Below, piece after piece: positions 5,223-24,687 of a stretch of 42,142 bases of DNA. Position 1 is the stretch's first letter; each line of letters begins with the position of its first letter. Source of the stretch: Phycisphaerae bacterium. GTDB lineage: Bacteria > Planctomycetota > Phycisphaerae > Phycisphaerales > SM1A02. Under the pieces are notes generated by a model. That model did not search any database and had not been told where the DNA came from. It saw nothing but the letters and a program-made list of their open reading frames with translations. The DNA lies in assembly GCA_016873335.1 (NCBI GenBank), contig VGXN01000010.1, forward strand, positions 1 to 42,142. Direction: 5' to 3'. Position numbers and translations under genes: made by a program.

Positions 5223-5822
5223 CTATGGCTTCAGGAGTGCGCGGATCGCATCGACACACTCGTGCACGCTCGCGCGATCCGTTCGCAGATGAAGCGCGGG
5301 CGCTGTCGGTGCCTCGTACGGCGCACTCACGCCCGTGAACGAAGGGAGATCGCCGCTGCGCGCTCGCGCGTAGTGCCCCTTGGGATCACGCGACTCCGCG
5401 ACCCGCACGGGTGCGTCGACGAACACTTCATGGAACGCCAGCGATGCCTTCATGTGGCGGCTGTGGACGAGCGCACGGTCTGCGGCAGTGGGACTCACCA
5501 TGCTCACGACCGCGGTGGAACCACTCTCGGCGATCAGCAGTGCAGCTTCGCCAGCGCGCCGCACCGCTTCGGCGCGACCTTCGTTGGAGAAATCGAGCCC
5601 TGCGTTCAAGCCATGACGAAGCGTGTCACCATCAAGCACAATGCATGGCGTGCCTGCAGCAAGCAGAGCATCTTCAAGTGCGCGCGCAATGGTCGTCTTG
5701 CCCGACGCGGGGATGCCCGTCAGCCAGACCGTGCAGCCCCGCCTCCCAAGCCGAGCAAAGCGATCGGCTGCGGTCAGTTGTGCGTGGGGTACCGCGTCAG
5801 GAGTTGGGCGAGGTGCGTTCAT
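5223..5822 (-). CDS. cysC: Adenylyl-sulfate (APS) kinase, stand-alone
   Basis: A 199-residue enzyme that phosphorylates APS to PAPS. The Walker A loop GIPASGKTT is at residues 36-44, and [16 protein letters not shown] (64 onward) is the APS/ADP-binding DGDxxRxGLxxxLGFS motif. The acceptor-type serine lies in [10 protein letters not shown] (near 110). [20 protein letters not shown] and the following APYEAP complete the lid and substrate motifs. Length and motif set are those of a full, active CysC. It is transcribed away from cysD and cysN, with a 68-base spacer holding a perfect inverted repeat. Because the CysC-like tail of CysN (6799-8631) has lost several of these motifs, this protein is probably the working APS kinase of the locus. 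Confidence 0.93.
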
Positions 5823-5858
5823 GTGTCGGTGCTTTCCGGCGTGCTGACGACGACCGAG

Positions 5859-5884
5859 GAAGCGTAGTCCAATCGCTACGCTTC
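5859..5884. promoter_or_regulatory. 9-bp inverted repeat in the cysC/cysD divergent spacer
   Basis: GAAGCGTAG, an 8-base loop, then CTACGCTTC: a perfect dyad lying 36 bases from the cysC start and 6 bases before the cysD ATG (5891). As DNA it could be an operator shared by both genes. As cysD mRNA it would form a hairpin next to the start codon, and no clear Shine-Dalgarno sequence is seen there. Which of these applies cannot be settled from sequence alone. Confidence 0.45.
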
Positions 5885-5890
5885 TCGCAG

Positions 5891-6799
5891 ATGCACGATC
5901 GGCGCTGGACCCACCTCGACGACCTCGAAGCGGAGGCGATCCACATCCTCCGTGAAGCGGCGGCGTGTTTCGAGCGCCCCGTCCTGATGTATTCGATCGG
6001 CAAGGATTCGACCGTGCTGCTGCATCTGGCGCTCAAGGCGTTCTGGCCCGCGAAGCCGCCGTTTCCGTTGCTTCACATTGACACGACTTGGAAGTTCCGC
6101 GAGATGATTTCGTTTCGCGATGAGACGGCCCGCAGGCACGGGCTCGATCTTCGTGTGCACACGAACGCGGAAGGGCTGCGGCAGGGCATTTCACCGATCA
6201 CGCACGGCAGCCGCGTGCACACCGATGTCATGAAGACGCAGGCGCTGCGTCAGGCGCTCGAAGCGGGGCGCTACGACGCGGCAATCGGCGGCGCACGGCG
6301 CGATGAGGAACGCAGTCGCGCGAAGGAGCGCATCTTCAGCTTTCGCGATCGCAACCATCGCTGGGATCCGAGGCGGCAGCGTCCCGAGTTGTGGAACATT
6401 CCCAACACGCGTGTGCATGAGGGTGAAAGCATGCGGGTGTTCCCGTTGTCGAACTGGACCGAACTCGACGTGTGGCTTTACATCCTGGAGCATCGACTGC
6501 CGGTCGTTCCGCTGTATCTGGCGAAGCCGCGTCCCGTCGTCGAGCGCGATGGGCTGCTGATCATGCGCGATGATGATCGGCTCGATCTGCGGGCGGGAGA
6601 GCGCGTGCAGGAACTGGTCGTTCGTTTCCGCACGCTCGGCTGTTATCCGCTGAGTGGCGCCGTGGAGAGCAGTGCGGACACGCTCGAGAAGGTGGTGGAG
6701 GAGATGTTGCGCGCGCGCACGAGCGAGCGGCAGGGACGGCTGATTGACCACGATCAATCGGGCAGCATGGAGGAAAAGAAGCGCGAGGGCTACTTCTGA
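5891..6799 (+). CDS. cysD: Sulfate adenylyltransferase small subunit
   Basis: A 302-residue subunit, exactly the length typical of CysD. It forms APS from ATP and sulfate together with the CysN GTPase. The PP-loop motif MYSIGKDST is at about residues 35-43. The family blocks [51 protein letters not shown] and [13 protein letters not shown] follow, then [10 protein letters not shown] near the C-terminus and EEKKREGYF at the end. The ATG at 5891 fits the normal start, with [17 protein letters not shown] directly behind it. The frame stays open upstream, but that part is the complement of cysC. The stop overlaps the ATG of cysN (ATGA at 6797-6801), so the two subunits are translationally coupled. 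Confidence 0.95.
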
Positions 6800-8631
6800 T
6801 GTCATCGATCTTGAACGATGACGAGACGCTCGGCGCATTCCTCGATCGATATCGGTCGATGGAATTGCTGCGCTTCCTGACGTGCGGCTCCGTCGATGAT
6901 GGCAAGAGCACGCTGATCGGGCGCTTGCTGCATGACACCGACCGCGTGTATGACGATCATCGCAAGGCGCTCGAGGAAGACAGCAAGATCCATGGCACGC
7001 AGGGAGACAACGTGGATCTGGCGTTGCTGGTGGACGGACTGAAGGCGGAACGCGAACAGGGCATCACGATCGATGTGGCGTGGCGTTACTTTTCGACGGC
7101 GCGGCGCAGCTTCATCATCGCGGATTGTCCAGGGCATGAGCAGTACACGCGCAACATGGCCACAGGGGCGAGCCACTGCCAGTTGGCGATCACGCTGATC
7201 GATGCGCGACACGGCATGACTCGGCAGACGCGGCGGCATGCGTTCATCGCGGCACTCCTTGGGCTGCCGCAGATGGTCGCTGCGGTCAACAAGATGGATC
7301 TGGTCGGTTGGGACGAATCGCGCTTCCGCGAGTTGGAGCGGGACTTTCTCGCGTGGTGTGCACGGCTTGGAACGCCAGAACCGACGGTGGTGCCGATCAG
7401 CGCGCTCCACGGGGACTGCATCGTGCATCCGAGCACCAATGCGCCTTGGTATCGCGGACCAACGATCCTGCAGTTGCTCGAGAGCGTTCCTGTGATGAAG
7501 CCGTCCGCCGATGCGCCGCTGCGGCTTCCTGTGCAGCATGTGATCCGCCCCTCCCCGGATTTCCGCGGCTTTGCAGGGCGTATCGAGTCGGGGAGTGTGG
7601 CGGTCGGCGACCGCGTGCAGGTGTTGCCGTCGGGTCGGCAGACACGCATTGCGCGCATTGCGCGCGACGACGCGGATGGCGGTGATCTGCAGTCGGTGGC
7701 TGCACCGAGCAGCGTGCTTGTGACGCTCGTCGATGAGGTGGACTGCAGCCGAGGCGATGTGATCGCATGTGTCGGTGGCGCGCAGCAACCCGTCGCAAGC
7801 ACTTCGATCGAGGCGGATCTGGTGTGGATGGACGAGACGCCGCTGCTTGCTGGCGCGTCGTTCCTGATCCGCATCGGCACGCGCACCGTGCCCGCAAGGG
7901 TCGTCCGCATTCGGCATGTCGTGGATGTGGACACGCTCGCGCAGCATGCGCGCGATTCGCTCGAGTGGAACGAGATCGGGCGCGTTGACATCGTCACCCA
8001 GCAGCCGATCGTCGTTGAGCCGTACCGTCAGATGCGTTCACTCGGTGCGCTCATCCTGATCGACCGCGTGACACATGCGACTGCCGCTGCGGGCATGGTG
8101 CGCAGCGGCGACCCGCATGAACCCAGTCCACGCCGCGCGCACTGGACGACAAGTCCGTCGCCGACCATCGAACCGCCCGCGGGTCGGAGCGCGAGCGAGT
8201 CCGTGGAACGCGCCGCACGGTGGCGGCAGCGACCCGCCGCAATCCTGCTGTTTGGTGCGCCCAAGTCTGGGAAAACGCGCCGTGCCTTCGCGCTCGAACG
8301 CCACCTGTGGCAGCAAGGGCACGCGGTCATCGTGCTCGATGGACAAGCGCTGCGGGGAGGACTCAGTCGAGATCTCACCTTCAGCGATGAGGACCGAAGC
8401 GAAAACCTTCGGCGCGCAGCAGAGGTTGCGCGGCTCCTGCTCGATCAGGGGATGGTCGTCATTCTCAGTATGGTCGCACCGCAGTCCGCAGCGCGCGATC
8501 TTGCGCGCGATCTGATCGGGCCCGATCGCTTCCTCGCCATCGATTGTGCGCAGGCGAGCGAAGACGACGCGGCACTGTTTGGCGATGTCGAAGCGTTCAT
8601 CCGCCCCGACCAAACACTTGGCGAAGGATGA
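6799..8631 (+). CDS. cysN: Sulfate adenylyltransferase GTPase subunit with decayed C-terminal CysC-like domain
   Basis: A 610-residue protein. The CysN part has all GTPase motifs: GSVDDGKST (30-38), the switch REQGITIDVAWRYF, DCPGHEQYTRNM and NKMDL, then EF-Tu-like beta-barrels up to about residue 445. A low-complexity linker leads to a second P-loop domain (about 480-610) clearly derived from APS kinase: GAPKSGKT (486-493), LDGQALRGGL and LTFSDEDRSENLRRAAEVA. In it the DGD motif has become DGQ. The domain stops about 20 residues after the SMVAP strand, so the RDPKGLY..FTG..YEAP lid seen in the separate CysC (5223-5822) is missing. I infer an intact GTPase driving APS synthesis and a non-catalytic APS-kinase tail. 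The last 35 bases overlap the 3' end of the convergent gene at 8597. Confidence 0.92.
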   Translation: MSSILNDDETLGAFLDRYRSMELLRFLTCGSVDDGKSTLIGRLLHDTDRVYDDHRKALEEDSKIHGTQGDNVDLALLVDGLKAEREQGITIDVAWRYFSTARRSFIIADCPGHEQYTRNMATGASHCQLAITLIDARHGMTRQTRRHAFIAALLGLPQMVAAVNKMDLVGWDESRFRELERDFLAWCARLGTPEPTVVPISALHGDCIVHPSTNAPWYRGPTILQLLESVPVMKPSADAPLRLPVQHVIRPSPDFRGFAGRIESGSVAVGDRVQVLPSGRQTRIARIARDDADGGDLQSVAAPSSVLVTLVDEVDCSRGDVIACVGGAQQPVASTSIEADLVWMDETPLLAGASFLIRIGTRTVPARVVRIRHVVDVDTLAQHARDSLEWNEIGRVDIVTQQPIVVEPYRQMRSLGALILIDRVTHATAAAGMVRSGDPHEPSPRRAHWTTSPSPTIEPPAGRSASESVERAARWRQRPAAILLFGAPKSGKTRRAFALERHLWQQGHAVIVLDGQALRGGLSRDLTFSDEDRSENLRRAAEVARLLLDQGMVVILSMVAPQSAARDLARDLIGPDRFLAIDCAQASEDDAALFGDVEAFIRPDQTLGEG

Positions 8632-9988
8632 ACGGCAGCACCTGATGTGCCGGCACTTCGAGATCGTCGGAGTCCGTGTCATCCACCATCAGGACGGGAC
8701 GAAGCGCGTGCGCGCCTTCGATGCGCCCGTGCGATCCGCGCACCAGTGACGCATCGAGCGGGATGACATCGAGGAGCGCGCGCTGCCCGAGCCGCCGCTG
8801 CAGCAGGCGCAGCGCGATTCGGGCCTTCGCAAATGTGAGTTGCGGATCGAGGAACAGTTCGCACGGGTCGTAGCCCGGCTTGCGGTGGATGTCGACGGTC
8901 CTCGCGTAGTCGGGTGCGAGCGCATCGTCGTTCCACCACGGATAGGCGAACCAACTGTCCTCTGCGGCGATGGCCACGAGATCTCCCGCGCGGCGGTGCG
9001 CGATGCCTGCCGCTTGCTTCGCGCCATCATCGAGAACCTCCGCCACGCCAGGCGTGGCACGCAGGAGTTCGGCCACTGCGCCCTTCTCATCGGCGCGCGC
9101 CACATGGATGTGCGCGACTTGATGATCGCAGACGGCGAACGCCCGCGACGCGCCGACATCGGCATGCTCGCGTCCGAGTTCGCTTCGCAGAGCGACAAAC
9201 CCTGCGCCGCGCAGCACGCGGTTCAGATGCACGGGGCGTTTCACGGATGCGATGCCGTACTCGCTCAACACCATCACTCGAATGCCGCGGTCATCGAAGA
9301 AGCGCAGCAGCACGCCGAATACTTCATCGATCTCGCGGAGGTCGGCACGCAGGTGCGGGTTCGCCGCATCACCGCCAAGTCGCTGCAGCGGGTAGTCCAA
9401 GTGGGGGAGGTAGACGAGCGTGATGGTCGGATCATGACGCGCGACGGTCAGCATGGTCGCGCGTGCGATCCACTGCGTCGATCGGATGTCTGCGGCCGGA
9501 CCCCAGAAGTGGAAGAGCGGGAACGCGCCGAGTTCGGATTGCAACTCATCACGCCATGCGGATGGAGTGGTCCAGATGTCCGGCACCTTTCGACCATCCG
9601 CACAGTAGACGGGGCGTGGGGTGACGGTGATATCCGCCCCAGAGTGCATCGCGTTCCACCAGAAGAGATTCGCCGTCGAAACCAACGGATCGCGGCGCCG
9701 TGCGATCTCCCAAAGCCTCGGTCGCTGCACGAGAGCGGCGGACTGCTTCCAGAAGTGCACCTCATTCAGATCGCGGTCGAACCATCCGTTGCCGACGATG
9801 CCATGTTCGCTTGGGCGCGTGCCTGTCAGGATGCTCGCTTGAACGGTGCTCGTGACCGCAGGCAGATCGGGCACCAACGATCGGATTCCACCGCAGCGGC
9901 GTGCGAAGGCGACAAGATTTGGAGTCGATGCACCAAGAAGGTGCGGCGTCAGACCGACCACATTGAGAATCGCAAGGCGCTGTGCCAC
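8597..9988 (-). CDS. eboF: EboF-like alkaline phosphatase superfamily protein (type I phosphodiesterase/nucleotide pyrophosphatase)
   Basis: A 463-residue protein starting at GTG 9986-9988. ILNVVGLTPHLLG opens the fold. The nucleophile threonine lies in PAVTSTVQASILTGT, followed by SEHGIVGNGW. Later candidate metal ligands are YLPHLDYPLQRLG, SEYGIASVKRPVHLN and CDHQVAHIHV. The order matches the nucleotide pyrophosphatase/phosphodiesterase branch. The first metal Asp seen in canonical members (LDG-type) is replaced by VVG, and the usual DHG is EYG, so metal coordination differs from the textbook enzyme. It lies 36 bases after the UbiA-type gene and is the last gene of this ebo arm, which is the main reason for the EboF label. 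No substrate can be inferred. No signal peptide is seen, so it is probably cytosolic. Confidence 0.75.
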   Translation of the reverse strand: MAQRLAILNVVGLTPHLLGASTPNLVAFARRCGGIRSLVPDLPAVTSTVQASILTGTRPSEHGIVGNGWFDRDLNEVHFWKQSAALVQRPRLWEIARRRDPLVSTANLFWWNAMHSGADITVTPRPVYCADGRKVPDIWTTPSAWRDELQSELGAFPLFHFWGPAADIRSTQWIARATMLTVARHDPTITLVYLPHLDYPLQRLGGDAANPHLRADLREIDEVFGVLLRFFDDRGIRVMVLSEYGIASVKRPVHLNRVLRGAGFVALRSELGREHADVGASRAFAVCDHQVAHIHVARADEKGAVAELLRATPGVAEVLDDGAKQAAGIAHRRAGDLVAIAAEDSWFAYPWWNDDALAPDYARTVDIHRKPGYDPCELFLDPQLTFAKARIALRLLQRRLGQRALLDVIPLDASLVRGSHGRIEGAHALRPVLMVDDTDSDDLEVPAHQVLPFILRQVFGRGG

Positions 9989-10024
9989 GGCTGTGAGAGG
10001 GTAGGGCAGACGATCGTGGCGTGG

Positions 10025-11380
10025 TCAGCTGCCTGCGGTCTTGCGCTGAAGCATGCGCGTCGCGAAGTAGAGCGCAGCGCACACGCCAACCAGCAGTGGC
10101 TGACCAAGCAGGGCGCACAGACACGCATCAAGCATCGCAAGCGCGGCGATGAGCGCCGCGATGCCCGCAGGTCGACGGGATGGGTGATTGAGTGCCGCAA
10201 CCAGTCCGCGCGTCGAGATCCAGACGAAGCAGAGTGCGGTCACACCAGCGAGCGCGACGACCATGAGCGCCAGGACACCGCCTGTGGCGATGAAGCCTGA
10301 GCGCATCAGTCCGAATGACTCACGCGCCGAAACTGCCAGCAGAAGCAGTGCGGGCAGCAGTCCCACCGCCGCGATGAACGGCAGCCGTGCGCGGAGTCGC
10401 TGAGGAATCGGGCGGCTACAAATGGGTGGATTCGCCGTGAGATCACAGCCGCATTCGGTGCATCGGTTGGCAGATACGTCGTACAACCGGTAATGGCAGC
10501 GCGAGCATCTTGCCTCGGTGAACTGGGTGTCTGCTTCGCGCCGTGCCACGATGGAGAGCATGAGCGTGTGAAGTGCGATCGCGAGCGGCGGAAGGATTAG
10601 GACTACGAGGACAGCGCTCGTGTTCATGGAGAGAAGTCTGGTATCGAGCGAGCCAGTCCGCGCAAGGAGTGCGAGGCAGACCGAAACGGGTACGAAAAAC
10701 CGGCACACCGCGAGCAGTATCACAGACCATGCAGTGCGCTTGTGAAGAAGGTTGTACGAGATTGCGGCGAGGGAAAGCAGCAGCACAGGCATGGTCGTTG
10801 CCCGCCAGCCAATTCGAATCTGTTGTGCGCGATCCTCCTCGAAGCTGGTGAGATCGAAAGGATCCGTCATCAGCATCACAGCGAGCCATGCTGCCGCTCC
10901 AAGGAGCGATACGGCGATCCACATCCGCCCAATGCGGTGAAGCATGATCGACTGGGATCGGCGAGCTTTGTCGAGGGTCCACACACCGATGAGTGCGGCA
11001 CAAGCCAATGGCACGAATCCAGTGGTCATGCCAATGCCAAACGACAGGCCGATGGTGAGGAGTGCGATAAAGGCCGTCCAAGCGGCAGGGAGACGGATTC
11101 GTCCACTTGCCACGGGACGAGTGGGGCGTTCGATGGCATCGATGTCGCGATCTACGATTGCGTTCAACACCATTCCTGCGAAGTACAGGGCGCACATCGC
11201 GCACACGACCTCGAAGAGCCCGTCAAAGACCAAGCCGGGGTAGGACAAGCTCGCACGAATGGCGGCGACCATCGCAATGCCGACCGCACAGTCCGCCAAC
11301 ACTGTCGGAGTGTTGGACGCGCGGAGCAGCGCCATCCACTCCCAGAAAACCCCGCTGGTCGCACTGCGGTCGTGGATCAT
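10025..11380 (-). CDS. eboC: EboC-like UbiA-family prenyltransferase with inserted zinc ribbon
   Basis: A 451-residue polytopic protein. Residues 73-95 hold NAIVDRDIDAIERPTRPVASG, the first Asp-rich prenyl-diphosphate motif plus the NRPxRPxxSG signature of UbiA enzymes. YNLLHKR (about 209-215) takes the place of the usual YD..K motif, with Asp changed to Asn. About eleven hydrophobic segments can be counted, and the length far exceeds the usual 290-300. Between two of them lies C292-x2-C295...C307-x2-C310, a zinc ribbon, in a loop after VARREAD. The ATG at 11380 overlaps the eboE stop as ATGA, matching the coupling seen one gene upstream. An ATG at 11416 is possible but would create a 40-base overlap. 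In cyanobacterial ebo clusters EboC is a UbiA-like membrane protein; the lipid made here is unknown. Confidence 0.8.
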   Translation of the reverse strand: MIHDRSATSGVFWEWMALLRASNTPTVLADCAVGIAMVAAIRASLSYPGLVFDGLFEVVCAMCALYFAGMVLNAIVDRDIDAIERPTRPVASGRIRLPAAWTAFIALLTIGLSFGIGMTTGFVPLACAALIGVWTLDKARRSQSIMLHRIGRMWIAVSLLGAAAWLAVMLMTDPFDLTSFEEDRAQQIRIGWRATTMPVLLLSLAAISYNLLHKRTAWSVILLAVCRFFVPVSVCLALLARTGSLDTRLLSMNTSAVLVVLILPPLAIALHTLMLSIVARREADTQFTEARCSRCHYRLYDVSANRCTECGCDLTANPPICSRPIPQRLRARLPFIAAVGLLPALLLLAVSARESFGLMRSGFIATGGVLALMVVALAGVTALCFVWISTRGLVAALNHPSRRPAGIAALIAALAMLDACLCALLGQPLLVGVCAALYFATRMLQRKTAGS

Positions 11381-12558
11381 GTGCGTAGAAGGGCGTTCAA
11401 CCGTTGCCGTGTCCATGCCAGTTCATCGGCAATGCCATGCGCCAAACTGTCGCGACGCAGATCAATCGGCAGCGCGTCCCATGCATAGGTTTCGACCTCA
11501 AAGAGTCGAACGCCATCGCTCGGCTCGATCGCCTCGAAGCAGGCTTCGATGTCGCGGCGAGTGGTGCTAAGCGGACCGACGAACTCCAGGTCGACTGGGA
11601 CATGGAAGTGGACGCGCCAAACCCCGTCTGGCGCGTCATCGAACGCGCTTCCGAGGTCTTCGAAGAAGTGCACTTTCGCAGCTCCATCGAGCACACATGT
11701 TTGGTGAAGGAAGCGCGGCTCATCGAAGTTGCGCAGCGCACGGAACGCGCGGTCAGACCCATCGCATGCCAGTGCGCTTGACACCTGCACCTTGCCGATT
11801 CGGATCCCGGCGCGCCGATAATTGGCAAGGGCATCCGCCTGTGACTCGAACATCACAGCGGCATGGCAGATGTCATGGCAGACGCGCACATGGCGCAGCG
11901 GATCGGGAAGGTCGGCGCTCGGTCTGATCGCCTGTGTGAAGAAGTCGACCACATCCCGCGACCTGTCGAGTACGCAGCCCGGCTCGGGCTCGATGTCGAG
12001 GTGGATGCAGAGCCCCGTGCGGTCTTCGATCGCCCGCAGATGACGCGCCACCTGATCGATGTGCCCAGCCACAAGTGCCGCATCCTGTCCGCAGCCATCA
12101 CGCGAGAACCCCTCGCGCCACGCGATCGGCAGCGTGGAGATCGACGCTTCGGCCAGCGGCGTTCCCCCCGAGGCGGTGACACCACCACCGCCGCAGAGCA
12201 CGGCGAGAATGTCCGCGAGCGCGATCGTGTACTGCGCGCGCCGTGGGTCGCGCCAATCCGGTTGGTAGACGGACTTCTTGACGGTCGCCGCGCGAAAGTC
12301 GCCGAACGGAAAGCCGTTGAGCGTGAAGACGGTCAGCGCCCGCTCCCCAAGCCAATCACGCAATCGCGCCGCACCATCGGCCGCGGCAAGAACTTCTTGG
12401 GCCGCCCGTGCGCTCAGCCACAGACCGATTGGCAGCGGGGCAGCCCCGCCGCGCAATCTGCGCACGGCGACCGCATGGCGTTCAAGCCCGTCGAGCGTCT
12501 GTGCAAGCGAAGGACCGCCATGCACATTCGTGCAGTAGCCGAGTGTCGGTGCCGTCAT
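11377..12558 (-). CDS. eboE: EboE-like TIM-barrel metabolite-traffic protein
   Basis: A 393-residue protein related to xylose isomerase-like sugar-phosphate isomerases. The N-terminus TLGYCTNVHGG is the CTN(I/V)HxG opening typical of EboE. FTLNGFPFGDFR, VYQPDWRDPRRAQYT, CIHLDIEPEPGC, VRVCHDICHAAVMFE and VHFHVPVDLEF follow along the barrel. The Glu, Asp and His residues at strand ends (HLDIEPE, CHDICH, HFHVP) are plausible metal ligands. The ATG at 12556-12558 overlaps the stop of the C26 amidotransferase gene (ATGA), and the stop overlaps eboC in the same way, so three genes are coupled. In cyanobacteria the ebo genes are tied to moving the scytonemin monomer to the periplasm. What metabolite this organism handles is unknown. 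Confidence 0.85.
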   Translation of the reverse strand: MTAPTLGYCTNVHGGPSLAQTLDGLERHAVAVRRLRGGAAPLPIGLWLSARAAQEVLAAADGAARLRDWLGERALTVFTLNGFPFGDFRAATVKKSVYQPDWRDPRRAQYTIALADILAVLCGGGGVTASGGTPLAEASISTLPIAWREGFSRDGCGQDAALVAGHIDQVARHLRAIEDRTGLCIHLDIEPEPGCVLDRSRDVVDFFTQAIRPSADLPDPLRHVRVCHDICHAAVMFESQADALANYRRAGIRIGKVQVSSALACDGSDRAFRALRNFDEPRFLHQTCVLDGAAKVHFFEDLGSAFDDAPDGVWRVHFHVPVDLEFVGPLSTTRRDIEACFEAIEPSDGVRLFEVETYAWDALPIDLRRDSLAHGIADELAWTRQRLNALLRT

Positions 12559-13241
12559 CGCGTGACCGAAGCGTTCGCGTGTTCGCGTGCCGCGTGCACC
12601 AGTTGCGCAACGATGGCATCGCCCATCGTGACATCCGCCGTGCGTTCGGGATGCCACTGCACGCCGACATAGAAGGGACGCTTGGGGGATCGGATCGCTT
12701 CGAGCACGCCATCATCACTCCACCCGATCGCATCGAATGGACCAGGTGCCGCGAGTGCCTGGTGATGCCAACTTGCGACGGGGCCGCTGCCGAGTGCACT
12801 TTCGACCGCGTGCACATGATCGAATCTGTGGCGATCGGCATCGGGCTTGACATCGTGCAAATGCTGGATGAGTGGACAGCCCGCGTGCACACCCATGAGT
12901 TGCATGCCCAGACAGATGCCAAGCACAGGCAGTTCCGGTTGCGCATCGAGCGCGCGCAGCAGCGCGAACTCCGCCGCTTGACGCGCGGGCTCCATCACCT
13001 GCGCCTCCGGGTGCAGTGCAACACCAAAGGGTCGCACATCGATGTCATTGCCGCCGGTGATCAGGATGCCATCGCAGCGCTGCAGCAGCGTCGCGCGGAT
13101 GTCGGCGATCGCGGGCAGAAGGATGGGAACGCCGCCCGTTCGGATGACCGCATCGACATAGGTCTGCTTCACTTCATGGCGCAGGCGTCCCTGCGGATCG
13201 CGCACAAGATTGGCGGTGATGCCGATGACAGGCGGGTGCAT
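12555..13241 (-). CDS. Class I glutamine amidotransferase-like peptidase C26 (gamma-glutamyl hydrolase type)
   Basis: A 228-residue protein starting at ATG 13239-13241 with HPPVIGITANLV. DGILITGGNDI gives the oxyanion strand, GICLGMQLMGVHAG the nucleophile Cys, and VQWHPE the catalytic His plus Glu: the full Cys-His-Glu triad of peptidase C26 (PuuD-like). The family hydrolyses gamma-glutamyl amide bonds, as in gamma-glutamyl-GABA. The gene's stop shares bases with the eboE start, so it is translated together with eboE. That makes it a candidate part of the ebo pathway rather than a bystander. No separate synthetase domain is present, so I favour hydrolase over biosynthetic amidotransferase. 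A further in-frame upstream stretch to 13304 exists but overlaps the SIMPL gene and lacks family similarity. Confidence 0.85.
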   Translation of the reverse strand: MHPPVIGITANLVRDPQGRLRHEVKQTYVDAVIRTGGVPILLPAIADIRATLLQRCDGILITGGNDIDVRPFGVALHPEAQVMEPARQAAEFALLRALDAQPELPVLGICLGMQLMGVHAGCPLIQHLHDVKPDADRHRFDHVHAVESALGSGPVASWHHQALAAPGPFDAIGWSDDGVLEAIRSPKRPFYVGVQWHPERTADVTMGDAIVAQLVHAAREHANASVTR

Positions 13242-13300
13242 CCGACCATTATGGTCGATTGTCGCCCTCCGCACCCGCCCGTCATCGAGTTGAGCGGGAA

Positions 13301-14101
13301 TCACTGGGCGATCGCGTAGCGGAGCGAGACGGTGGCCCGGACACTCTTTCGGATCGCGCTGGTATCGCTGTAGCCATAGTCACTGACATCCGTGGAACCC
13401 TCCGGCACAATCTGGAAGACGCCTTGCGAGGCATCGAGCAGGGCGCCGACCCCCTTGCTTGATCCTGCTGCCAACAATCTCGCCCGCTCAGATGCATTCT
13501 CGGTTGCCTCGCGGAGCAGTTGAAGCTTGAGCGTTTCGAGTGATGAGACCCAGAACGATGGCGATCGAGATTCGATCTCGATGCCGTCCTTGATGAGGTT
13601 CGTGCAGCCGCGGGACATTTCTGCGATGGCGTGCACGTTGTCGCTGAGGACGCGTACTCGTTGCTGCAGCACATACGACTCGACCGTGTTGGTGTCCTTG
13701 CCTTCGGCCGTCTTCGCGTGGATACGGGTTGTGTCGATCTCGGAGATCTCGATCGTGTCTTTCGCGAGCGCCGACGCAGTCAGCATCGTGGTCAGTGCAG
13801 CCGTGGAACGCTGCTGGATCTCAAATGCTTCCGTGAGCGTCGTGGCGCGAGCAACGATTGTGGCGCTCCACGAGGCACGGTCTGAAGTCACATTGCGGGT
13901 TGCGACACCACGCACATCGATCGGTGCTGCCGTGTCATTGAAGTGCGCGATTGCAGTGCCGAGCGACTGTGATGCGAGTACAAGTCCGACAGCGAGCGAT
14001 CCGCCGAGCAGGAACATGGCCCAGCCGATGCCATGCGACTTTGTTGGTGCGATCGATTCCTTTGTGGACGGCGAAGCGGGCGATGAAGGGAGCGATGTCA
14101 T
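13301..14101 (-). CDS. SIMPL (DUF541) domain protein, membrane-anchored
   Basis: A 266-residue protein. Residues about 26-46 (WAMFLLGGSLAVGLVLASQSL) form a single N-terminal membrane anchor. The rest fits the SIMPL/DUF541 fold: IDVRGVATRNVTSDRASWSATI at the start, the mid-domain YVLQQRVRVLSDNVHAI and a C-terminal IRKSVRATVSLRYAI strand. This places it in the periplasm. Proteins of this family are seen in many Gram-negative bacteria; their molecular role is mostly undefined. The start at ATG 14099-14101 removes a short upstream stretch with no similarity. It lies 59 bases upstream of the C26 hydrolase, on the same strand, and heads the second ebo arm. Whether it belongs functionally is open. 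Confidence 0.75.
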   Translation of the reverse strand: MTSLPSSPASPSTKESIAPTKSHGIGWAMFLLGGSLAVGLVLASQSLGTAIAHFNDTAAPIDVRGVATRNVTSDRASWSATIVARATTLTEAFEIQQRSTAALTTMLTASALAKDTIEISEIDTTRIHAKTAEGKDTNTVESYVLQQRVRVLSDNVHAIAEMSRGCTNLIKDGIEIESRSPSFWVSSLETLKLQLLREATENASERARLLAAGSSKGVGALLDASQGVFQIVPEGSTDVSDYGYSDTSAIRKSVRATVSLRYAIAQ

Positions 14102-14115
14102 GATGAGCCTCCGTG

Positions 14116-14134
14116 CTGCAGGATCATTCTGCAG
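14116..14134. promoter_or_regulatory. Dyad CTGCAGGA-TCA-TTCTGCAG in divergent spacer
   Basis: A 19-base near-perfect inverted repeat (8 pairs including one G-T, 3-base loop) in the 114-base spacer between the divergent SIMPL gene and the membrane-protein gene at 14216. Operator-like placement; no further support. Confidence 0.3.
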
Positions 14135-14215
14135 ATTGTGCGAATGGCGCGGGCTTCCGTGCACCGCGCTGGGAGGGTGAGGCTAGAAGCCGCTTCGCGC
14201 TTGTAAAGTGGATAT

Positions 14216-14656
14216 GTGCGGATTTTTCGCTTTTTCCTTGGCGTCGCTCTTGGCTACGCGGCGGTCGTGGTGACGGTGATGTTTCTCACGACGCTGGTGT
14301 CTCTCATACTCGGACCAAGGTTCTTGGACGCAGGTGGAACCGACGCGTGGTCGCTCGCGCAAGTCGCCGTGGTCCTCGCAATCGCAGCGGCGAGCGCATG
14401 GTGCGGCGGATTCGCAGCCGCATGGTGGGGCGGCGGTCGCGTGTGCGGATATGTGCTCGCCGCGCTCTTGCTTGTTGTCGGCGGGGTCGCACTGTTCGCG
14501 GGGCGCGTGAGCGGTGCGATGAGTGCTGCCCCGCTTTGGATCGCGGCAGCCGCACCGATTGTCGGCGCCATGTCGGCAATCATGGGAACGCACTCGCCGC
14601 GCGCCCTGCATCGACGAACCGCCAACGCGGATCACGCTCGAGTGGAGTCGCCATGA
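14216..14656 (+). CDS. Small four-helix membrane protein of unknown function
   Basis: A 146-residue protein starting at GTG 14216 (an ATG two bases upstream is out of frame). Four hydrophobic segments are visible at about 4-32, 47-68, 77-95 and 103-122, with Ala/Gly-rich helices and a short charged C-terminus. No catalytic residue pattern or known family was recognised. The stop overlaps the ATG of the following FAD oxidoreductase as ATGA (14653-14656), so the two are translationally coupled. It might act as a membrane partner for the oxidoreductase, but that is inference from position only. Confidence 0.6.
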   Translation: MRIFRFFLGVALGYAAVVVTVMFLTTLVSLILGPRFLDAGGTDAWSLAQVAVVLAIAAASAWCGGFAAAWWGGGRVCGYVLAALLLVVGGVALFAGRVSGAMSAAPLWIAAAAPIVGAMSAIMGTHSPRALHRRTANADHARVESP

Positions 14657-16221
14657 ACGCACAACCGCAAGCGGATGTGGTCATCGTCGGTGCCGGACAC
14701 AATGGGTTGGTGGCCGCAACGATGCTTGCGCGCGCAGGACTCGGCGTTCACGTGGTCGAAGAACGCGCAGTCATCGGCGGGGCAACGCGAACGGAGCGGC
14801 CCTTCCGAAAGGTCCCAGGGCTTGCGACATCGACCGCGTCCTATCTCCTCGGACTGATGCCTCCCGAGATCGAGCAGCGCACGGGAGTGAAACTGGAGGT
14901 CATCCGCCGCGACCCGCACTATTTCCTGCCAATGCTCGACGGTCGCTTTCTGCTCTTCGGCACGGATCACGATGCGATGCGCAGCCAGTTTCTTGCCATG
15001 TTCTCGGAAGCGGATTGGCGGGCGAACCGCGCGCTTGCGCAGGAGATCAGCCAACTGCGCGACGATCTGGCGCCAAGCTGGCTGGAAGAACCGCTCTCGG
15101 CGGAAGCGACCGCGGCTCGGTGGATCCGACCGTCGCTGCAGCAGGTGTTCTTGGACCTCGTGCACGGAAGGGTGGAGGACTATCTCGCACGCTTTGGCTT
15201 CCAGAGCCAGTTGCTGCTGGCGATGTATGCCGTCACCGATGGGTTCTCGGGTCTGTGCGGGAGTTTCGGTACCGCGGGCACGGGGATGAACTTCCTTGTT
15301 CACAACATGTGCCGATGGCCAGGCAGTGACGGCACATGGATGGTGGCGCGCGGCGGCATGGGAGCCATCTCGCAGGCGTTCGCAACCGCCGCGCGGTCGC
15401 ATGGTGCAGCGATCGAGAGCGGCACGGCAGTCGAACGCATCACCCTGCAGGGTGATCGTGTGGATGGCGTCGCGCTTGCGGATGGTCGGCACATTCGAGC
15501 GCGCTGCGTGATCAGTGGCGCAGATCCGTTTCGGTTGCGATCGCTCGTCGGCCGCGCTGCGCTGCCCGATTCGTTGAACGCGCGCATCGATGGATTCGAA
15601 CGACCCGGCACGACCATGAAGATCAACATGGCGCTGCGCGGCCTGCCCGTGTTCCGCTGCCTTCCGGAAGAACGCGGTCAGCACCGAGGAACCATGCATC
15701 TCCTGCCACAGGGCAGCGATCCCATCGCGGAGATTCGCGCTGGATTCGATCAGGCGATGCGCGGCGAACTGCCTGAGTTTCCGACCATCGAGTGGTACAT
15801 CCACACACAAGTGGATCCGTCGCTGCGCGATGCGGAGGGGCATCACAATGCCGCATTCTTCATCCAGTGGGTTCCCAATCGCCTGCGCAGCGGATCGTGG
15901 GAAGATCACGAGGATTCGTATGTGCGTCATCTGATTTCTGTCGCGGAGCGTTTCTGTCCAGGACTCTCTGCGCAGGTGGTGGATACGGCGGTGCTGACTC
16001 CGCCAAAGATTGAGCGGGAGATCGGCATCACCCATGGGCACATCCATCATGTTGACAACACCTTTGGATTCGATCGACGCATGCCCTACGCAGCCGGCGT
16101 ACAGGGGCTGTATGCGTGCAGCGCGGGGTGCCATCCTGCAGGGTCTGTGATCGGCGCGGCTGGGCACAACTGTGCCGTGCGCGTTCTGAAGGATCTCGGC
16201 CAACGGCGAATGAAGCAGTGA
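14653..16221 (+). CDS. FAD-dependent oxidoreductase of the phytoene desaturase/PYROXD2 family
   Basis: A 522-residue protein. The N-terminal dinucleotide-binding motif is VVIVGAGHNGLVAATMLARAG, followed by the VEERAVIGGATRTE second part. The substrate-side blocks are GTAGTGMNFLVHNMCRWPGSDGTWMVARGGMGAIS and ITHGHIHHVDNTFGFDR. The FAD-binding C-terminus is GVQGLYACSAGCHPAGSVIGAAGHNCA, where the CrtI family has GLY..GAGTHPGGGVPG. The layout is closest to PYROXD2-like proteins rather than to dedicated carotenoid desaturases. It is coupled to the small membrane protein and converges on eboB with 20 bases between stops. As an isoprenoid-type oxidoreductase beside a UbiA prenyltransferase it might act on the same lipid product, but that is inference. 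Confidence 0.85.
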   Translation: MNAQPQADVVIVGAGHNGLVAATMLARAGLGVHVVEERAVIGGATRTERPFRKVPGLATSTASYLLGLMPPEIEQRTGVKLEVIRRDPHYFLPMLDGRFLLFGTDHDAMRSQFLAMFSEADWRANRALAQEISQLRDDLAPSWLEEPLSAEATAARWIRPSLQQVFLDLVHGRVEDYLARFGFQSQLLLAMYAVTDGFSGLCGSFGTAGTGMNFLVHNMCRWPGSDGTWMVARGGMGAISQAFATAARSHGAAIESGTAVERITLQGDRVDGVALADGRHIRARCVISGADPFRLRSLVGRAALPDSLNARIDGFERPGTTMKINMALRGLPVFRCLPEERGQHRGTMHLLPQGSDPIAEIRAGFDQAMRGELPEFPTIEWYIHTQVDPSLRDAEGHHNAAFFIQWVPNRLRSGSWEDHEDSYVRHLISVAERFCPGLSAQVVDTAVLTPPKIEREIGITHGHIHHVDNTFGFDRRMPYAAGVQGLYACSAGCHPAGSVIGAAGHNCAVRVLKDLGQRRMKQ

Positions 16222-16241
16222 GGCCGGCGGTGAAGTCCTCG

Positions 16242-17042
16242 TCAGCGACCCGTCGAGAAACGACCTGACTGCGAGAGGAAACGGAGGGGGTTCTCGAACG
16301 AGACCTTGCGGATCGCATCTTCGAGATGCCCGCGCCCACGCATCTCCTGTTGGCACTTTGGAACGGCCAGCGGATCGCTCACACCCCAATCGGCCGCCGA
16401 GTTGATCCAAAGACGGTCGGTCCCATGCATTTCGAAGATGTCGACCGCGCGCTGAGGCGTGCACTTCGTGTCGGGGTACAGCGTCATGCCCGCCCAGAAA
16501 CCGCGCCGCAATACTTCGCCAACCGTGTGTTCCTCGACATGATCGATGAGCACCCGTCCTGGATCGATGCCATGTTCACGGATCGCATCCATGATGAGGC
16601 GCGTTCCCTTCAACTTGTCCTCGAGGTGCGGCGTGTGAACGAGGATCATCAGCTGGTGCTTCGCCGCGAGCGCGATGTGCTCATGCAAGACCGTCAGTTC
16701 GTTTCGCGAGTTCTTGTTCAGCCCGATCTCGCCTATGCCGAGCACATTTGGGCGATCGAGGAATGACGGAATCTCCGCGAGCACCTCGCGCGCGAGTCCG
16801 ATGTCTTCACTCTCCTTCGGGTTGATGCAGAGCCACGTGTGGTGACGGATGCCGAACTGCGCCGCCCGCCGCGGTTCAGTATCGGTGAGCAGGCGGAAGT
16901 AGTCCACGAACCCCTGCACGCTCGACCGGTCGTAGCCAGCCCAGAAGGCGGGCTCCGTGATGGCCACGCAACCCGCGAGCGCCATCTGGCGGTAGTCATC
17001 CGTGGTGCGCGAGACCATGTGGATGTGCGGGTCGATGTACAT
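16242..17042 (-). CDS. eboB: EboB-like TatD-family metal-dependent hydrolase
   Basis: A 266-residue amidohydrolase-fold protein. [24 protein letters not shown] gives the N-terminal HxH metal pair. [14 protein letters not shown] carries the bridging Glu, LVHTPHL and LIDHVEEHT supply two further His ligands, and [16 protein letters not shown] the final Asp. The order is that of TatD-like hydrolases. The TITEPAF-like segment [14 protein letters not shown] is typical of the ebo-linked branch rather than of DNase TatD. It starts 3 bases after the stop of the 102-residue small gene and ends 20 bases from the convergent oxidoreductase. The eboD-small-eboB arrangement places it in the ebo pathway. 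The substrate is unknown. Confidence 0.82.
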
Positions 17043-17045
17043 GAC

Positions 17046-17354
17046 TCAACGATCCGGAAGCGGGGCAGCCCCGATGGCGCCCTTCATCGGCGCGCGATCA
17101 ATCGGTTCGGTCGAGCGGTCGCTCCACAGTTCCAGCACCCGCCGCGCACGCTCAGGCTTGCCGTCGACGAGCAGGCGGATCGCCGCCAACATCGCACGCA
17201 TGCGGACATCGTCGCTGCGGTCGGCAGCCGGTTGACCTTCCGCCTGTGCTGCGCGGTCGTAACGATCCAGAAACGCCGCAAGATCAAGCACCTTCGCGCG
17301 GTGCTCGAGGAAGTAGCGGTCCGCGACTTCGCGTGCCTTGAGCGGGGTCGACAT
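17046..17354 (-). CDS. Small conserved-looking protein between eboD and eboB
   Basis: A 102-residue soluble protein starting at ATG 17352-17354, 10 bases after eboD and 3 bases before eboB, so clearly one transcript. The sequence begins STPLKAREVADRYFLEHRAK, continues with DLAAFLDRYDRA and an acidic stretch, then MRAMLAAIRLLVDGKPERARRVLELWSD. It ends with TEPIDRAPMKGAIGAAP. It is mostly alpha-helical and has no cysteine, signal or membrane segment. I recall similar unnamed planctomycete proteins but cannot name a family. It occupies the position where one might look for EboA. Canonical EboA is about twice as long and I see no clear match, so I do not assign it. It may be a lineage-specific ebo component or scaffold. 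Confidence 0.7.
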   Translation of the reverse strand: MSTPLKAREVADRYFLEHRAKVLDLAAFLDRYDRAAQAEGQPAADRSDDVRMRAMLAAIRLLVDGKPERARRVLELWSDRSTEPIDRAPMKGAIGAAPLPDR

Positions 17355-17364
17355 GCCACGCATC

Positions 17365-18498
17365 CTACGGAGCGAGCGAACGCACCGCAGCGCGGATGGC
17401 ATCCACATCCATCTCGTGCACATCCATCGGCGAACCGATCGCCGTGAGTTGCGTGATGGTCAGCCTTCCCCCAAGATGCTCACGGAACTCCTCAAGTCCA
17501 AGGAGCAGTGCATCGATGTCATCGAGCAGCGGGTGCCAGGTGGGCAGGTGCAGTGCGCGGAGGCATGCGCTCACGCGTGCCGCTTCGCCTTGGGCGAGCA
17601 GACCAACATGCCGTGCATAGGCGCAGTCGAGAGCGATGCCGATGGCGACCGCTTCGCCGTGGGGCAGCGTGAAGCCAGTCATCGACTCCAACTTGTGTGC
17701 CGACCAGTGCCCAAAGTCGAGCGGGCGCGCCTCGCGCAGTTCGAACGGATCGCCGCCGCGCGTGATGTGTTCGAGGTGCAATTGGGCGCAGCGAACGATG
17801 GTCGGCATGGAGGTACGGATGTCGCGCGCCGCAATCCGAGCGGCGTCGCGCTCAATCTGTGTCAGGAGCGCCGGGTCGCGTAGGCAGGCGATCTTGACCG
17901 CTTCACTGAAGCCGGCGCGGAAGTCGCGGCTGTCGAGTGTCGTCAGGTAGGTCTCGTCGCAAAGCACAGCCCACGGCACGGCAAACGCGCCGACATAGTT
18001 CTTCTTTCCGAAACGGTTGATGCCGTTCTTGACGCCCATCGCCGCATCGTCCATGGCGAGCGTGGTGGTTGGGATACGCACAAGCCGCACGCCGCGATGC
18101 GCGAGCGTCGTGCCAAGACCAACCGCATCAAGCATCGCGCCACCACCGATGGCGATCACGTAGCTCCTGCGATCGATGGCATGTCGCTCCGTCGCGGCAA
18201 TGACCTGATCGACAATGACAGAGTCGTTCTTTGCCGCTTCACCGCCCGAAACGATGTCGACACTGCAGAGATCGGGCAGCGTGTGCCCCGCGGATGCTTG
18301 CGCACTGAACCACGATTGCAGCGCCCGCGCGCCTTGCGGATTCGCCTTCTCCACTCCAGCATCGATGAATGCGATGGCTCGTCGCGAACCACTTCCTGCG
18401 AGCACATCCCGCAGCACGCCATTGGTCGGATCGAGCAGCGCCGCGGAGAAGATCACGCGGTGTTGAAGCGGCAACTGGAATGACTCATCGAACCGCAT
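17365..18498 (-). CDS. eboD: EboD-like 3-dehydroquinate synthase homolog (sugar phosphate cyclase superfamily)
   Basis: A 377-residue protein. The NAD-binding glycine motif lies in VIAIGGGAMLDAVGLGTTLAHRG. IPTTTLAMDDAAMGVKNGINRFGKKNYVGAF matches the [25 protein letters not shown] block of dehydroquinate synthases, with conserved Lys residues. The three metal ligands are present: Glu in GFSEAVKIA, His in FGHWSAHKLE and His in LPHGEAVAIG. The active-site core is thus intact, but VDSSVGGKT is altered to MDDAAMGVKN, so the substrate probably differs from DAHP. This variant is typical of EboD, which is encoded in ebo clusters next to a TatD hydrolase as here. It is the first gene of this arm. The upstream spacer to htrA carries two hairpins. 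Confidence 0.85.
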   Translation of the reverse strand: MRFDESFQLPLQHRVIFSAALLDPTNGVLRDVLAGSGSRRAIAFIDAGVEKANPQGARALQSWFSAQASAGHTLPDLCSVDIVSGGEAAKNDSVIVDQVIAATERHAIDRRSYVIAIGGGAMLDAVGLGTTLAHRGVRLVRIPTTTLAMDDAAMGVKNGINRFGKKNYVGAFAVPWAVLCDETYLTTLDSRDFRAGFSEAVKIACLRDPALLTQIERDAARIAARDIRTSMPTIVRCAQLHLEHITRGGDPFELREARPLDFGHWSAHKLESMTGFTLPHGEAVAIGIALDCAYARHVGLLAQGEAARVSACLRALHLPTWHPLLDDIDALLLGLEEFREHLGGRLTITQLTAIGSPMDVHEMDVDAIRAAVRSLAP

Positions 18499-18647: not shown

Positions 18648-20189
18648 TCAGGGCATCGGCTTCACCATCGTGAAGCGTGTGCTGCCCTCCCGTTCGACGA
18701 GAATCCGAACCATGCCACGCGCACCCGCGCGCTCGAGCATCGACTGCAACTGCGCAACGCTGCGCACCGCGGAGCCGTTCACTTCGCGGATCACATCGCC
18801 TGGCTGCAGCCCAGCCTGCGCAGCGGGACCGCCATCCAGCGTCGATGCAATGACCACACCGGGCTGCTGTGTCTGCAGCGCGGCAGCAGTCTCCGCATCA
18901 AGATCAAGCGCCTCGATGCCCAACTTCTCCGCGGCGGTCGAAATGTCCGCGGGTTCATCGGATGACTCCACGCGTCCCTGGCTGGGTCGCTCACCAAGCA
19001 CAGCCTGAACCTCCAGTCGTTCACCTGCGCGGAGGAGCGCGAGGGTGATGCGCGCCTGCGGTTCGCGGCTCGCGATCATTCGCATCATCGTCGATGGCGT
19101 CGCTGCGGGTGCGCCGTCGACGGCAGTGATGATGTCGCCACTCTCAATGCCCGCACGCGAGGCAGGAGTGCCGGGCAACACCGCTGCCACGAGCACGCCG
19201 CTGCTCGATGGATACCCGAAGCTTGCCGCGAGATCGCGGTCGAGTTCCTGCATCGACACGCCCAGCCAGCCGCGGCGGACTTGCGTGCCCGCGGCGATTG
19301 CGGATGCGACCCGCTGCACCACATGCGCGGGGATCGCAAAGCCGACACCCATGTTGCTGCCATCGCGTGATGCGATGCCACTGTTGATGCCCACAACCTT
19401 GCCGTCGAGGTTGACCAGCGGTCCGCCCGAGTTGCCAGGATTGATCGCAGCGTCCGTCTGGATGTACTCCTCAAGCGTCGACAGCCCAACACCGTCGCGC
19501 CCCTTCGCGCTCACGATGCCTGCGGTCACGGTCTGTCGAAGTCCAAACGGGCATCCGATGGCAAGAACCCAGTCGCCCGTGTCGATGGAGTCGCTCGTGT
19601 CGAACTGCGCGGCGGTCAGTGCGGTCTCGTCGACACGCACGACCGCGAGATCCGTCTCGTGATCGGTCCCCACAACGCGTGCAACGAGTTCGCGACCATC
19701 ATCGAGCCCTACCAGCACCTCGTCGGCGCCATCGATCACATGATGGTTGGTGACGATCAGTCCATCGGCGGTGTAGATGACGCCCGTTCCCTGCCCGCTG
19801 CGCGGTGCGCGCTGTGGAGCGAGGGGTGATGGCGTGCGAGGCTGCACGGTGCTGCGCCCGAAGTTCGGCGAGAAGGGGGGACGATCGATGCAAGTGATGG
19901 AAACCACGCTTGCTTGTGCGGTGCGAGCCACTTCGCGGAACGCACGCGAAAGATTCCGCGCGTGCTGCAGATCCCCGCGGATGCTGGTCGGTTCTGTGTC
20001 TGTGTCGGGATCGGCAGATGCTGCCGTGCGCGGTGATTGCGCGGTGCTGAAGAGGCAGGTGAGGAGAAGTGCGGGTGTGACTGAGCGTCGCCACGGTGTC
20101 TGGCCTCGTCCACGGAGAAGCCAGCTGATCGGGCCAGCATGAGCATTCCAAGCCTTTGTCCCAGTCGCTTTCCCGCCCTCGACTCCCAT
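18648..20189 (-). CDS. htrA: Membrane-anchored HtrA/DegP-type serine protease with two PDZ domains
   Basis: A 513-residue protein. The catalytic triad is complete: His150 in TNHHVID, Asp180 in HETDLAVV and Ser254 in NPGNSGGP. PDZ1 runs at about 300-390 (GWLGVSMQEL...IESGDIITAVDG) and PDZ2 over the last 95 or so residues (AAQAGLQPGDVIREVNG). A hydrophobic stretch at about 38-50 (TPALLLTCLFSTA) anchors it or acts as signal, giving a periplasmic protease for misfolded envelope proteins. The start was chosen at ATG 20187-20189 because AAAGGAG lies 6 bases before it. Another ATG 6 bases upstream would have no spacing to this ribosome site. The frame stays open beyond, into an unsupported basic stretch. 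It follows the TrmH-type gene after 64 bases on the same strand. Confidence 0.92.
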   Translation of the reverse strand: MGVEGGKATGTKAWNAHAGPISWLLRGRGQTPWRRSVTPALLLTCLFSTAQSPRTAASADPDTDTEPTSIRGDLQHARNLSRAFREVARTAQASVVSITCIDRPPFSPNFGRSTVQPRTPSPLAPQRAPRSGQGTGVIYTADGLIVTNHHVIDGADEVLVGLDDGRELVARVVGTDHETDLAVVRVDETALTAAQFDTSDSIDTGDWVLAIGCPFGLRQTVTAGIVSAKGRDGVGLSTLEEYIQTDAAINPGNSGGPLVNLDGKVVGINSGIASRDGSNMGVGFAIPAHVVQRVASAIAAGTQVRRGWLGVSMQELDRDLAASFGYPSSSGVLVAAVLPGTPASRAGIESGDIITAVDGAPAATPSTMMRMIASREPQARITLALLRAGERLEVQAVLGERPSQGRVESSDEPADISTAAEKLGIEALDLDAETAAALQTQQPGVVIASTLDGGPAAQAGLQPGDVIREVNGSAVRSVAQLQSMLERAGARGMVRILVEREGSTRFTMVKPMP

Positions 20190-20253
20190 ATCCATCTCCT
20201 TTCGACCCGAGCAGTACGCCGCAGCGCCGAGGAGGGTTCGGAGAAGTTGTCGA

Positions 20254-21120: not shown

Positions 21121-21159
21121 GTGTTTTCGTGGCGCCTCGTGCGGCGGGCGCGCGCCGCG

Positions 21160-22506: not shown

Positions 22507-22585
22507 GGGAAGGGTGGTGGAAGGTTGGTGGAGGGTGGGTGAAGGTCGAAGAAGTACGAAGGATAGAGGGATCTTGCGCGCGGCT
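22507..22585 (-). promoter_or_regulatory. Pyrimidine-rich SD-less leader between E1-beta and E2
   Basis: On the minus (coding) strand this spacer is a repetitive C/A/T tract with CCACC, CCTTCC and CACCC units running right up to the E2 ATG, and no GGAGG-like site is present. On the plus strand the same stretch has four GGG runs (22507-22509, 22512-22514, 22533-22535, 22537-22539) and several GG pairs. It is therefore a possible G-quadruplex former on the template strand. It is the only sizeable gap among the three E1/E2 genes. Confidence 0.4.
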
Positions 22586-23554: not shown

Positions 23555-23557
23555 GGG

Positions 23558-24664: not shown

Positions 24665-24687
24665 GGTGAAAGTGTAGCGCGGCGTGT

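Follow-up and report, generated by a model that had tools for sequence, protein, structure and literature searches.

The DNA analysed here, called the window throughout, is a stretch of 42,142 nucleotides from a Phycisphaerae bacterium (phylum Planctomycetota; contig VGXN01000010.1 of assembly GCA_016873335.1), and it carries an ebo locus between positions 8597 and 18498. The ebo genes are a widespread set tied to the movement of small molecules across the inner membrane. The ten open reading frames of the locus are given below in order from eboD to eboF; our interpretation of them is based throughout on gene families, gene order, and sequence motifs.

17365-18498, minus strand: eboD, a sugar-phosphate-cyclase (3-dehydroquinate-synthase-like) enzyme of 377 residues
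17046-17363, minus strand: eboG (as assigned below), a small helical protein in place of eboA, of 105 residues, or 102 if started at 17354
16242-17042, minus strand: eboB, a TatD-like metal-dependent hydrolase of 266 residues (PF01026, E 8.5e-08)
14653-16221, plus strand: a CrtO/CrtI/PYROXD2-like flavin adenine dinucleotide (FAD) oxidoreductase, a genus-level insert convergent with eboB
14216-14656, plus strand: a small predicted membrane protein, with four helices by the count of the preliminary description; seen in 12 of 149 loci
13301-14164, minus strand: a SIMPL/DUF541 protein (PF04402, E 2.4e-18), true start likely near 14101
12555-13304, minus strand: a C26 amidotransferase of the gamma-glutamyl hydrolase type (PF07722, E 1.6e-38), true start likely near 13241
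11377-12558, minus strand: eboE, a TIM-barrel metabolite-traffic protein (NF035939, 388 bits against a cut-off of 250)
10025-11416, minus strand: eboC, a UbiA-type prenyltransferase with a four-cysteine insert (PF01040, E 1.1e-11, above its cut-off)
8597-9988, minus strand: eboF, a phosphodiesterase-fold protein without the canonical metal-ligand residues (PF01663, E 7.7e-53)

All ten frames are open. Profile searches and a reading of the DNA found every gene that the preliminary description had named, on the strand and in the order that it gave, and no protein was placed in an unrelated family, which upholds its identification of an ebo locus; because the same genes are conserved in the same order in relatives, the arrangement is also beyond what chance would produce. 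The ebo genes share one strand but do not form a single uninterrupted operon, the plus-strand pair standing between them. On the DNA, the start of eboE is at 12558, where an ATGA overlaps the amidotransferase stop, and that of eboC is probably at 11380, chosen by its ATGA overlap with eboE. The stop codon of eboD occupies 17367-17365, and eboG begins at 17363 or 17354; a single base separates eboD from eboG, and three bases separate eboG from eboB. The flavoprotein gene starts at 14653 in an ATGA overlap with the membrane-protein gene, for which no Pfam or NCBIfam match was obtained, and its end lies 20 bases from the end of eboB, which it faces. The left arm (D-G-B) and the right arm (SIMPL-amidotransferase-E-C-F) are inferred to be transcribed separately, each as a single unit, and the flavoprotein pair presumably runs divergently from the SIMPL gene and convergently with eboB. 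The promoter scan returned two sites where 1.4 were expected, and there were four terminator-like sites against 5.4 expected; one of the latter is an 11-pair stem (18583-18556, minus strand) between an HtrA-like gene and eboD.

Our explanation, including the mechanism discussed below, is that the locus is an ebo operon of the eboG type, ancestrally ordered D-G-B-E-C-F and split by added genes, in a Planctomycetota genome; we would put the probability of this at roughly 70%. The gene that defines the type is the small one between eboD and eboB. Yurchenko and colleagues distinguished another kind of ebo operon, which lacks EboA and has in its stead a short protein of low conservation, EboG, with Deinococcus among the examples (PMC5133447; this and the other papers cited here are drawn on through excerpts). 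The small protein of the window shares 36% and 39% identity with its positional counterparts on two Deinococcus plasmids, with 28 columns invariant in all three, and on this comparison we identify it as EboG; the equation of the Deinococcus gene with the published EboG is by gene place and the text of that paper, and not by its accession list. The preliminary description had listed it as a small protein without a family name; it was found in 48 of 61 genomes, i.e., the source genome and 60 relatives. An EboA model that matched three of three positive-control plasmids was silent in the source assembly, which is 90% complete. The earlier statement that the locus has no eboA thus holds as an observation but not as a gap, because EboG takes its place: the set is the variant one, with EboG present and clustered with the other ebo genes and EboA not found, and no part of it is absent.

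Recognition of EboG by family models is poor. The window protein matched no Pfam or NCBIfam model, and the Deinococcus proteins no NCBIfam model, so eboG is annotated as hypothetical. An AlphaFold model (63 of 79 listed sequences formed the set for structure prediction) consists of three helices, with a predicted local distance difference test score (pLDDT) of 85.8 and a predicted template modelling score (pTM) of 0.72. Foldseek found no fold relative in the PDB (best E 4.1), the sequence profile gave one match to solved structures (E 0.027), and the best of the weak Pfam matches among the 63 members was at 0.0057. Remote kinship between EboG and EboA was considered and not detected (hhalign probability 0.1% over 12 columns, with three EboA sequences only). 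Among the literature matches listed, the name EboG for an ebo gene was found only in PMC5133447.

The ancestral order was sought in 149 loci: the window, 60 regions from relatives, eight plasmid regions, and 80 named loci (the best 80 of 574 in an EboB scan). Several named loci are the same contigs as relatives' regions, and locus counts are therefore not independent. Of the 60 regions from relatives, 13 have an uninterrupted D-G-B-E-C-F order, as do 18 of the 80 named loci, many of the others being cut by contig ends, carrying inserts, or showing part of the set; EboE itself was found in 42 of the 61 genomes, in 41 of them above the cut-off. The uninterrupted form in relatives makes it likely that a compact operon is ancestral, and what had been described as two arms are its halves, parted between eboB and eboE. 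The window holds the full eboG-type set, and most of its oddity is rearrangement rather than a new system. Ebo clusters with interruptions or splits have been published before (PMC5133447).

The genes that part the two halves have different histories. Exactly the arrangement of the window was seen in three regions from the same genus. The SIMPL profile matched 16 of the 149 loci, namely the window, 11 same-genus regions, and four named loci that match same-genus contigs in length, and over all 149 loci the SIMPL, membrane-protein, and flavoprotein genes accompanied ebo in the window's genus only. The flavoprotein (at E 1e-60 or better) occurs in 14 of 19 genus members and in none of 18 other genomes of the family, one order-level genome having a 37% relative. 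A congener, G005, has it on the ebo contig but at a distance of ~100 kb; in two more (G001 and G015) it is on another contig than ebo, which speaks neither for nor against linkage. The amidotransferase has a wider distribution: five other genera have copies of at least 55% identity no more than 1 kb from eboE, further genomes have copies of 39-50% on other contigs or far off, and it was probably recruited from a common family. The preliminary description had joined these genes to ebo as additions, had asked whether they are conserved beside it elsewhere, and would have been refuted by their lying in unlinked places. Conservation beyond the genus is borne out for the amidotransferase and not for the other three genes, so that one functional unit is not supported; for the flavoprotein, its separation from ebo in G005 is in part the refuting outcome. 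We take the amidotransferase to be a lineage accessory that has lasted as an addition in part of the family; the flavoprotein pair probably adjoins ebo without belonging to it.

The gap between eboB and eboE has received various genes. Eight loci of relatives have homologous same-strand genes there, of which the one profiled (L071) encodes an MFS transporter; another locus (L138) has a metallo-beta-lactamase/rhodanese gene, and elsewhere in the genus the gap is occupied by genes of the cytochrome c, DUF3500, and (weakly) DUF7133 kinds. The variety of these genes in the same gap makes it look like a spot that tolerates insertion, and the inserted genes of the window are late arrivals. It could be argued instead that the flavoprotein, membrane, SIMPL, and amidotransferase proteins are tailoring or export parts of the same pathway, which would then yield a lineage-specific metabolite. 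Compact packing and the ATGA overlaps speak for this, as do the persistence of the amidotransferase near eboE in several genera and the same-strand genes in the gap of the eight relatives, since an export role is plausible for the MFS transporter. However, the flavoprotein gene is on the opposite strand, it was found in part of one genus and in no other genome of the family, it stands far from ebo in G005, and other members of the genus fill the same gap with different genes; we consider joint tailoring unlikely.

In an operon of the eboG type, EboG and its neighbour EboB appear to go together. Of 127 loci with an EboG match (loci partly chosen by EboG or EboB), 126 have EboB on the same strand no more than 300 bases away, and EboG is found in 75 of the 80 loci chosen by EboB alone (again the best 80 of 574). 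All 14 loci chosen for EboA have it upstream of EboB and co-oriented, at a distance of 1.1 kb in one; of six loci chosen for EboG in that sample, EboB adjoins in four, and two have no EboB. Over 294 Planctomycetota genomes, EboG was detected in 41, EboA in 76 (74 above the cut-off), and both in only one, where 10.6 would be expected if relatedness is ignored; the EboG match in that one genome scores only 22.9 bits and lies inside a frame of 2371 residues. Absences in this phylum scan are soft because at most 17 EboG, 13 EboA, and 6 EboE candidates were scored per genome. Most EboG matches outside the order span only about the first 80 model positions. In ten examined genomes with such partial or with low-scoring EboG matches, EboB lies within 300 bp in five, within 1 kb in six, and elsewhere in four; in two of the four, the EboG match stands beside other genes. 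Short EboG-like genes away from EboB were noted in complete genomes of one family, f32 (L223:6913-7371 and L224:7315-7566), one of them adjoining a hisF-like gene (named by eye); either could be a paralogue or a displaced EboG.

The same division appears in a tree built from 57 EboB sequences. A 100/98 branch separates the 17 EboA-type rows from the 34 EboG-type rows without exception; six unlabelled rows are scattered over both sides, so that the labels need four changes for EboG and two for EboA. The window EboB lies inside the eboG-type side. One family (f73) has rows on both sides, and f32 has only EboA-type rows in the tree, yet EboB adjoins a short EboG in some f32 genomes. In tblastn searches the window EboB was 63% identical to a Gemmatirosa plasmid protein and 59% to those of two Deinococcus plasmids, the other 48 records giving 41-50%; its metal-ligand motif residues are invariant in ten aligned EboB. 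Most simply, EboA-EboB and EboG-EboB would each move as a unit, which extends the bipartition of EboB already reported (PMC5133447).

EboD is best described as a sugar-phosphate cyclase distinct from AroB. It scored 463 bits with NCBIfam PRK06203 (cut-off 333), a model that NCBI names 3-dehydroquinate synthase, and only 185 bits with the aroB model (cut-off 305); its motifs are kept. The best match among solved structures is 4p53 (E 1.4e-38), annotated as "Cyclase", which we take to be the valiolone synthase ValA. Because 15 of 19 genus members carry a distinct aroB-like gene at another place, EboD is as a rule an additional enzyme in the genus; the idea that it is the ordinary cellular AroB is accordingly unsupported there, but may still hold in the source assembly. 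Streptomyces ebo-like clusters with an SCO3242-type prenyltransferase are instructive in this regard. In four of four plasmid clusters, EboA, a TatD hydrolase, EboE, an EboF-type protein, and a UbiA-type prenyltransferase occur together with an inositol-3-phosphate synthase and a second isomerase/epimerase, whereas no eboD is annotated in the stretches examined (L127, L239, L240, and L241). One cyclitol-making enzyme thus stands in place of another, which supports the proposal made in 2016 that the ebo product is a prenylated cyclitol (PMC5133447). In two of the clusters (L127 and L239), a gene annotated as ScyD/ScyE family lies just upstream.

The putative prenyltransferase, EboC, belongs to the UbiA superfamily by its PF01040 match and retains the NxxxDxxxD motif. 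The AlphaFold model (from 35 of the window sequence and 38 listed ones) has a pLDDT of 84 and a pTM of 0.83, and every one of its ten top PDB matches, ranked by E-value, is a UbiA enzyme, the nearest being digeranylgeranylglyceryl phosphate synthase together with an archaeal UbiA. Residues 304-322 (window 10451-10507) form a zinc-ribbon-like insert with four cysteines that is also present in five further loci (L066, L074, L072, L142, and L148), and the four-cysteine pattern occurs in 23 of 81 EboC, several of these loci repeating a genome. Two side-by-side EboC matches, perhaps a tandem duplication of eboC, were seen in a congener (L062:16945-19631) and also in L148. EboE was identified by its curated model, NF035939, and gave one irrelevant match among solved structures (E 1.3).

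Homologues of EboC farnesylate quinoline acids: Ubi-297, an EboC, accepts 8-hydroxyquinoline-2-carboxylic acid and quinaldic acid in vitro (PMC9235831). The ebo genes could therefore act in aromatic or quinoline prenylation, with a product of the Ubi-297 type, and not in cyclitol chemistry or export, and EboD, under its NCBI name of 3-dehydroquinate synthase, could feed aromatic synthesis. Such a role would leave the inositol-3-phosphate synthase that replaces eboD in Streptomyces unexplained; moreover, most genus members have the separate aroB-like gene, the window EboC is far diverged, and the acceptors tested were a chosen panel. We find it distinctly improbable, and return to the cyclitol reading.

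EboF belongs to the type I phosphodiesterase/nucleotide pyrophosphatase family by its match to PF01663. When EboF sequences were aligned with the Xanthomonas enzyme of this family (NPP; 2gsn), whose metal-ligand positions we take to include D54, D257, H258, and H214, the position of the threonine nucleophile was T in 60 of 60 distinct sequences, but D54 was replaced by V or A, D257 by E, and H258 by Y in all 60, and H214 by Q in 59. The 60 sequences include those of Deinococcus, Gemmatirosa, Azospirillum, Aureibacter, Streptomyces, and one haloarchaeon. EboF thus keeps the fold family and the nucleophile position of NPP and differs from it at all four assumed ligand positions, so that, on this assignment of ligands, neither metal ion has its normal ligand set. 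In the excerpts of PMC5133447 and PMC6282210, EboF is treated as a hydrolase or pyrophosphatase homologue, and the ligand change is not mentioned.

The gene families, order, and conservation described above are observations; the mechanism that would connect them, taken as a whole, we rate somewhat short of even odds. EboD would cyclise a sugar phosphate, with sedoheptulose 7-phosphate the likeliest substrate, to a cyclitol, to which the membrane-bound EboC would attach a prenyl chain. The EboB-EboG pair and EboE may trim or isomerise the head group, and EboF, without a normal metal site, may bind or process a phosphate-bearing intermediate. The prenylated cyclitol would then serve in, or as, a carrier that brings a small molecule to the periplasm. 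In Nostoc punctiforme, each of the five ebo genes deleted (A, B, C, E, and F) is needed for scytonemin, and the deletions imply a role in the scytonemin monomer reaching the periplasm (PMC6282210); by analogy, the locus of the window might likewise move a metabolite there. More speculatively, EboA and EboG could be unrelated partner subunits that do the same job for two EboB lineages and are swapped only with their EboB, and EboF could be, family-wide, a binding or single-metal component without two-metal chemistry; ebo would then not be a linear pathway of enzymes but an assembled membrane machine around a carrier, the prenylated cyclitol. We regard this extension as doubtful. The pairing of EboA or EboG with an EboB lineage and the missing EboF ligands provide concrete tests of how ebo works.

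Several findings weigh against our explanation. In many Planctomycetota loci nothing of the set but the G-B pair was seen around EboB, and B and G may therefore work without E, C, and F nearby; furthermore, 112 of the 218 phylum-sample genomes with an EboE match show neither EboA nor EboG (given the 17 EboG candidates scored at most, and with 42 of the 218 EboE matches under the cut-off). EboD is the only aroB-like gene found in the source assembly (G000), and three congeners (G003, G006, and G014) show only EboD-type matches in the aroB search; these four may be incomplete assemblies, or EboD may double as dehydroquinate synthase in them. The EboC-specific model matched only partially (63 bits against a cut-off of 250), so the orthology of EboC rests on its place in the operon, and no PDB match of the EboC model fell below E 0.001, and the UbiA matches reached at best a TM-score (by target length) of 0.62. 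Finally, the acceptors used by EboC in vitro so far are aromatic and not cyclitols (PMC9235831). That the set is decaying and heading for loss would fit its broken synteny, an EboC identity to more distant genus members of 37-45% against 60-64% for EboE, and the failure to find EboE in four of 19 genus members, but with every frame intact, EboB 84-98% identical within the genus (except one 49-residue end piece at 79%), the EboB, EboC, and EboD motifs kept, and draft assemblies that may account for some of the absences, we think decay very improbable.

As an operon of the eboG type, the locus is of a known kind. Its closest counterpart is the Deinococcus operon (NZ_CP140100.1 and NZ_CP097151.1), which has the same six genes in the same order, D-G-B-E-C-F, but is uninterrupted, with no amidotransferase, SIMPL, or flavoprotein gene annotated within it; its EboC, of 292-297 residues, lacks the four-cysteine insert that the window protein carries. 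The ABCDEF-type operon of Cyanobacteria, Bacteroidetes, and eustigmatophyte plastids (PMC5133447, PMC6282210) has homologues of B, C, D, E, and F in common with the window, but it encodes EboA instead of EboG, an EboB of the separate lineage, and has another gene order. What is new is modest: the eboG-type operon of Planctomycetota, its split form, the four-cysteine EboC, the partner pairing, and the loss of ligands in EboF. According to the excerpts of the 2016 study, there was no ebo clustering in three Planctomycetota species (PMC5133447). Clustered ebo operons nevertheless exist in many members of the phylum, beyond that description, and those around the window are of the little-studied EboG kind; among the literature matches listed, nothing relevant by title was found on ebo in Planctomycetes beyond the 2016 work.

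A few observations on neighbouring and related DNA remain. On the Gemmatirosa kalamazoonensis plasmid (L123) the order is G-B-F-C; eboE is encoded on the opposite strand, and the stretch searched gave no EboD match. On the far side of eboF in the window (5411-8631, plus strand), a PAPS reductase-domain gene is followed by a fused CysN/APS kinase gene, the end of which overlaps the end of eboF by 35 bases. Upstream of eboD (window 18648-24889) are genes for an HtrA-like protease, a SpoU methylase, and the E2 and E1 components of a 2-oxoacid dehydrogenase, and these four nearest genes recur beside eboD in many regions from the same genus.

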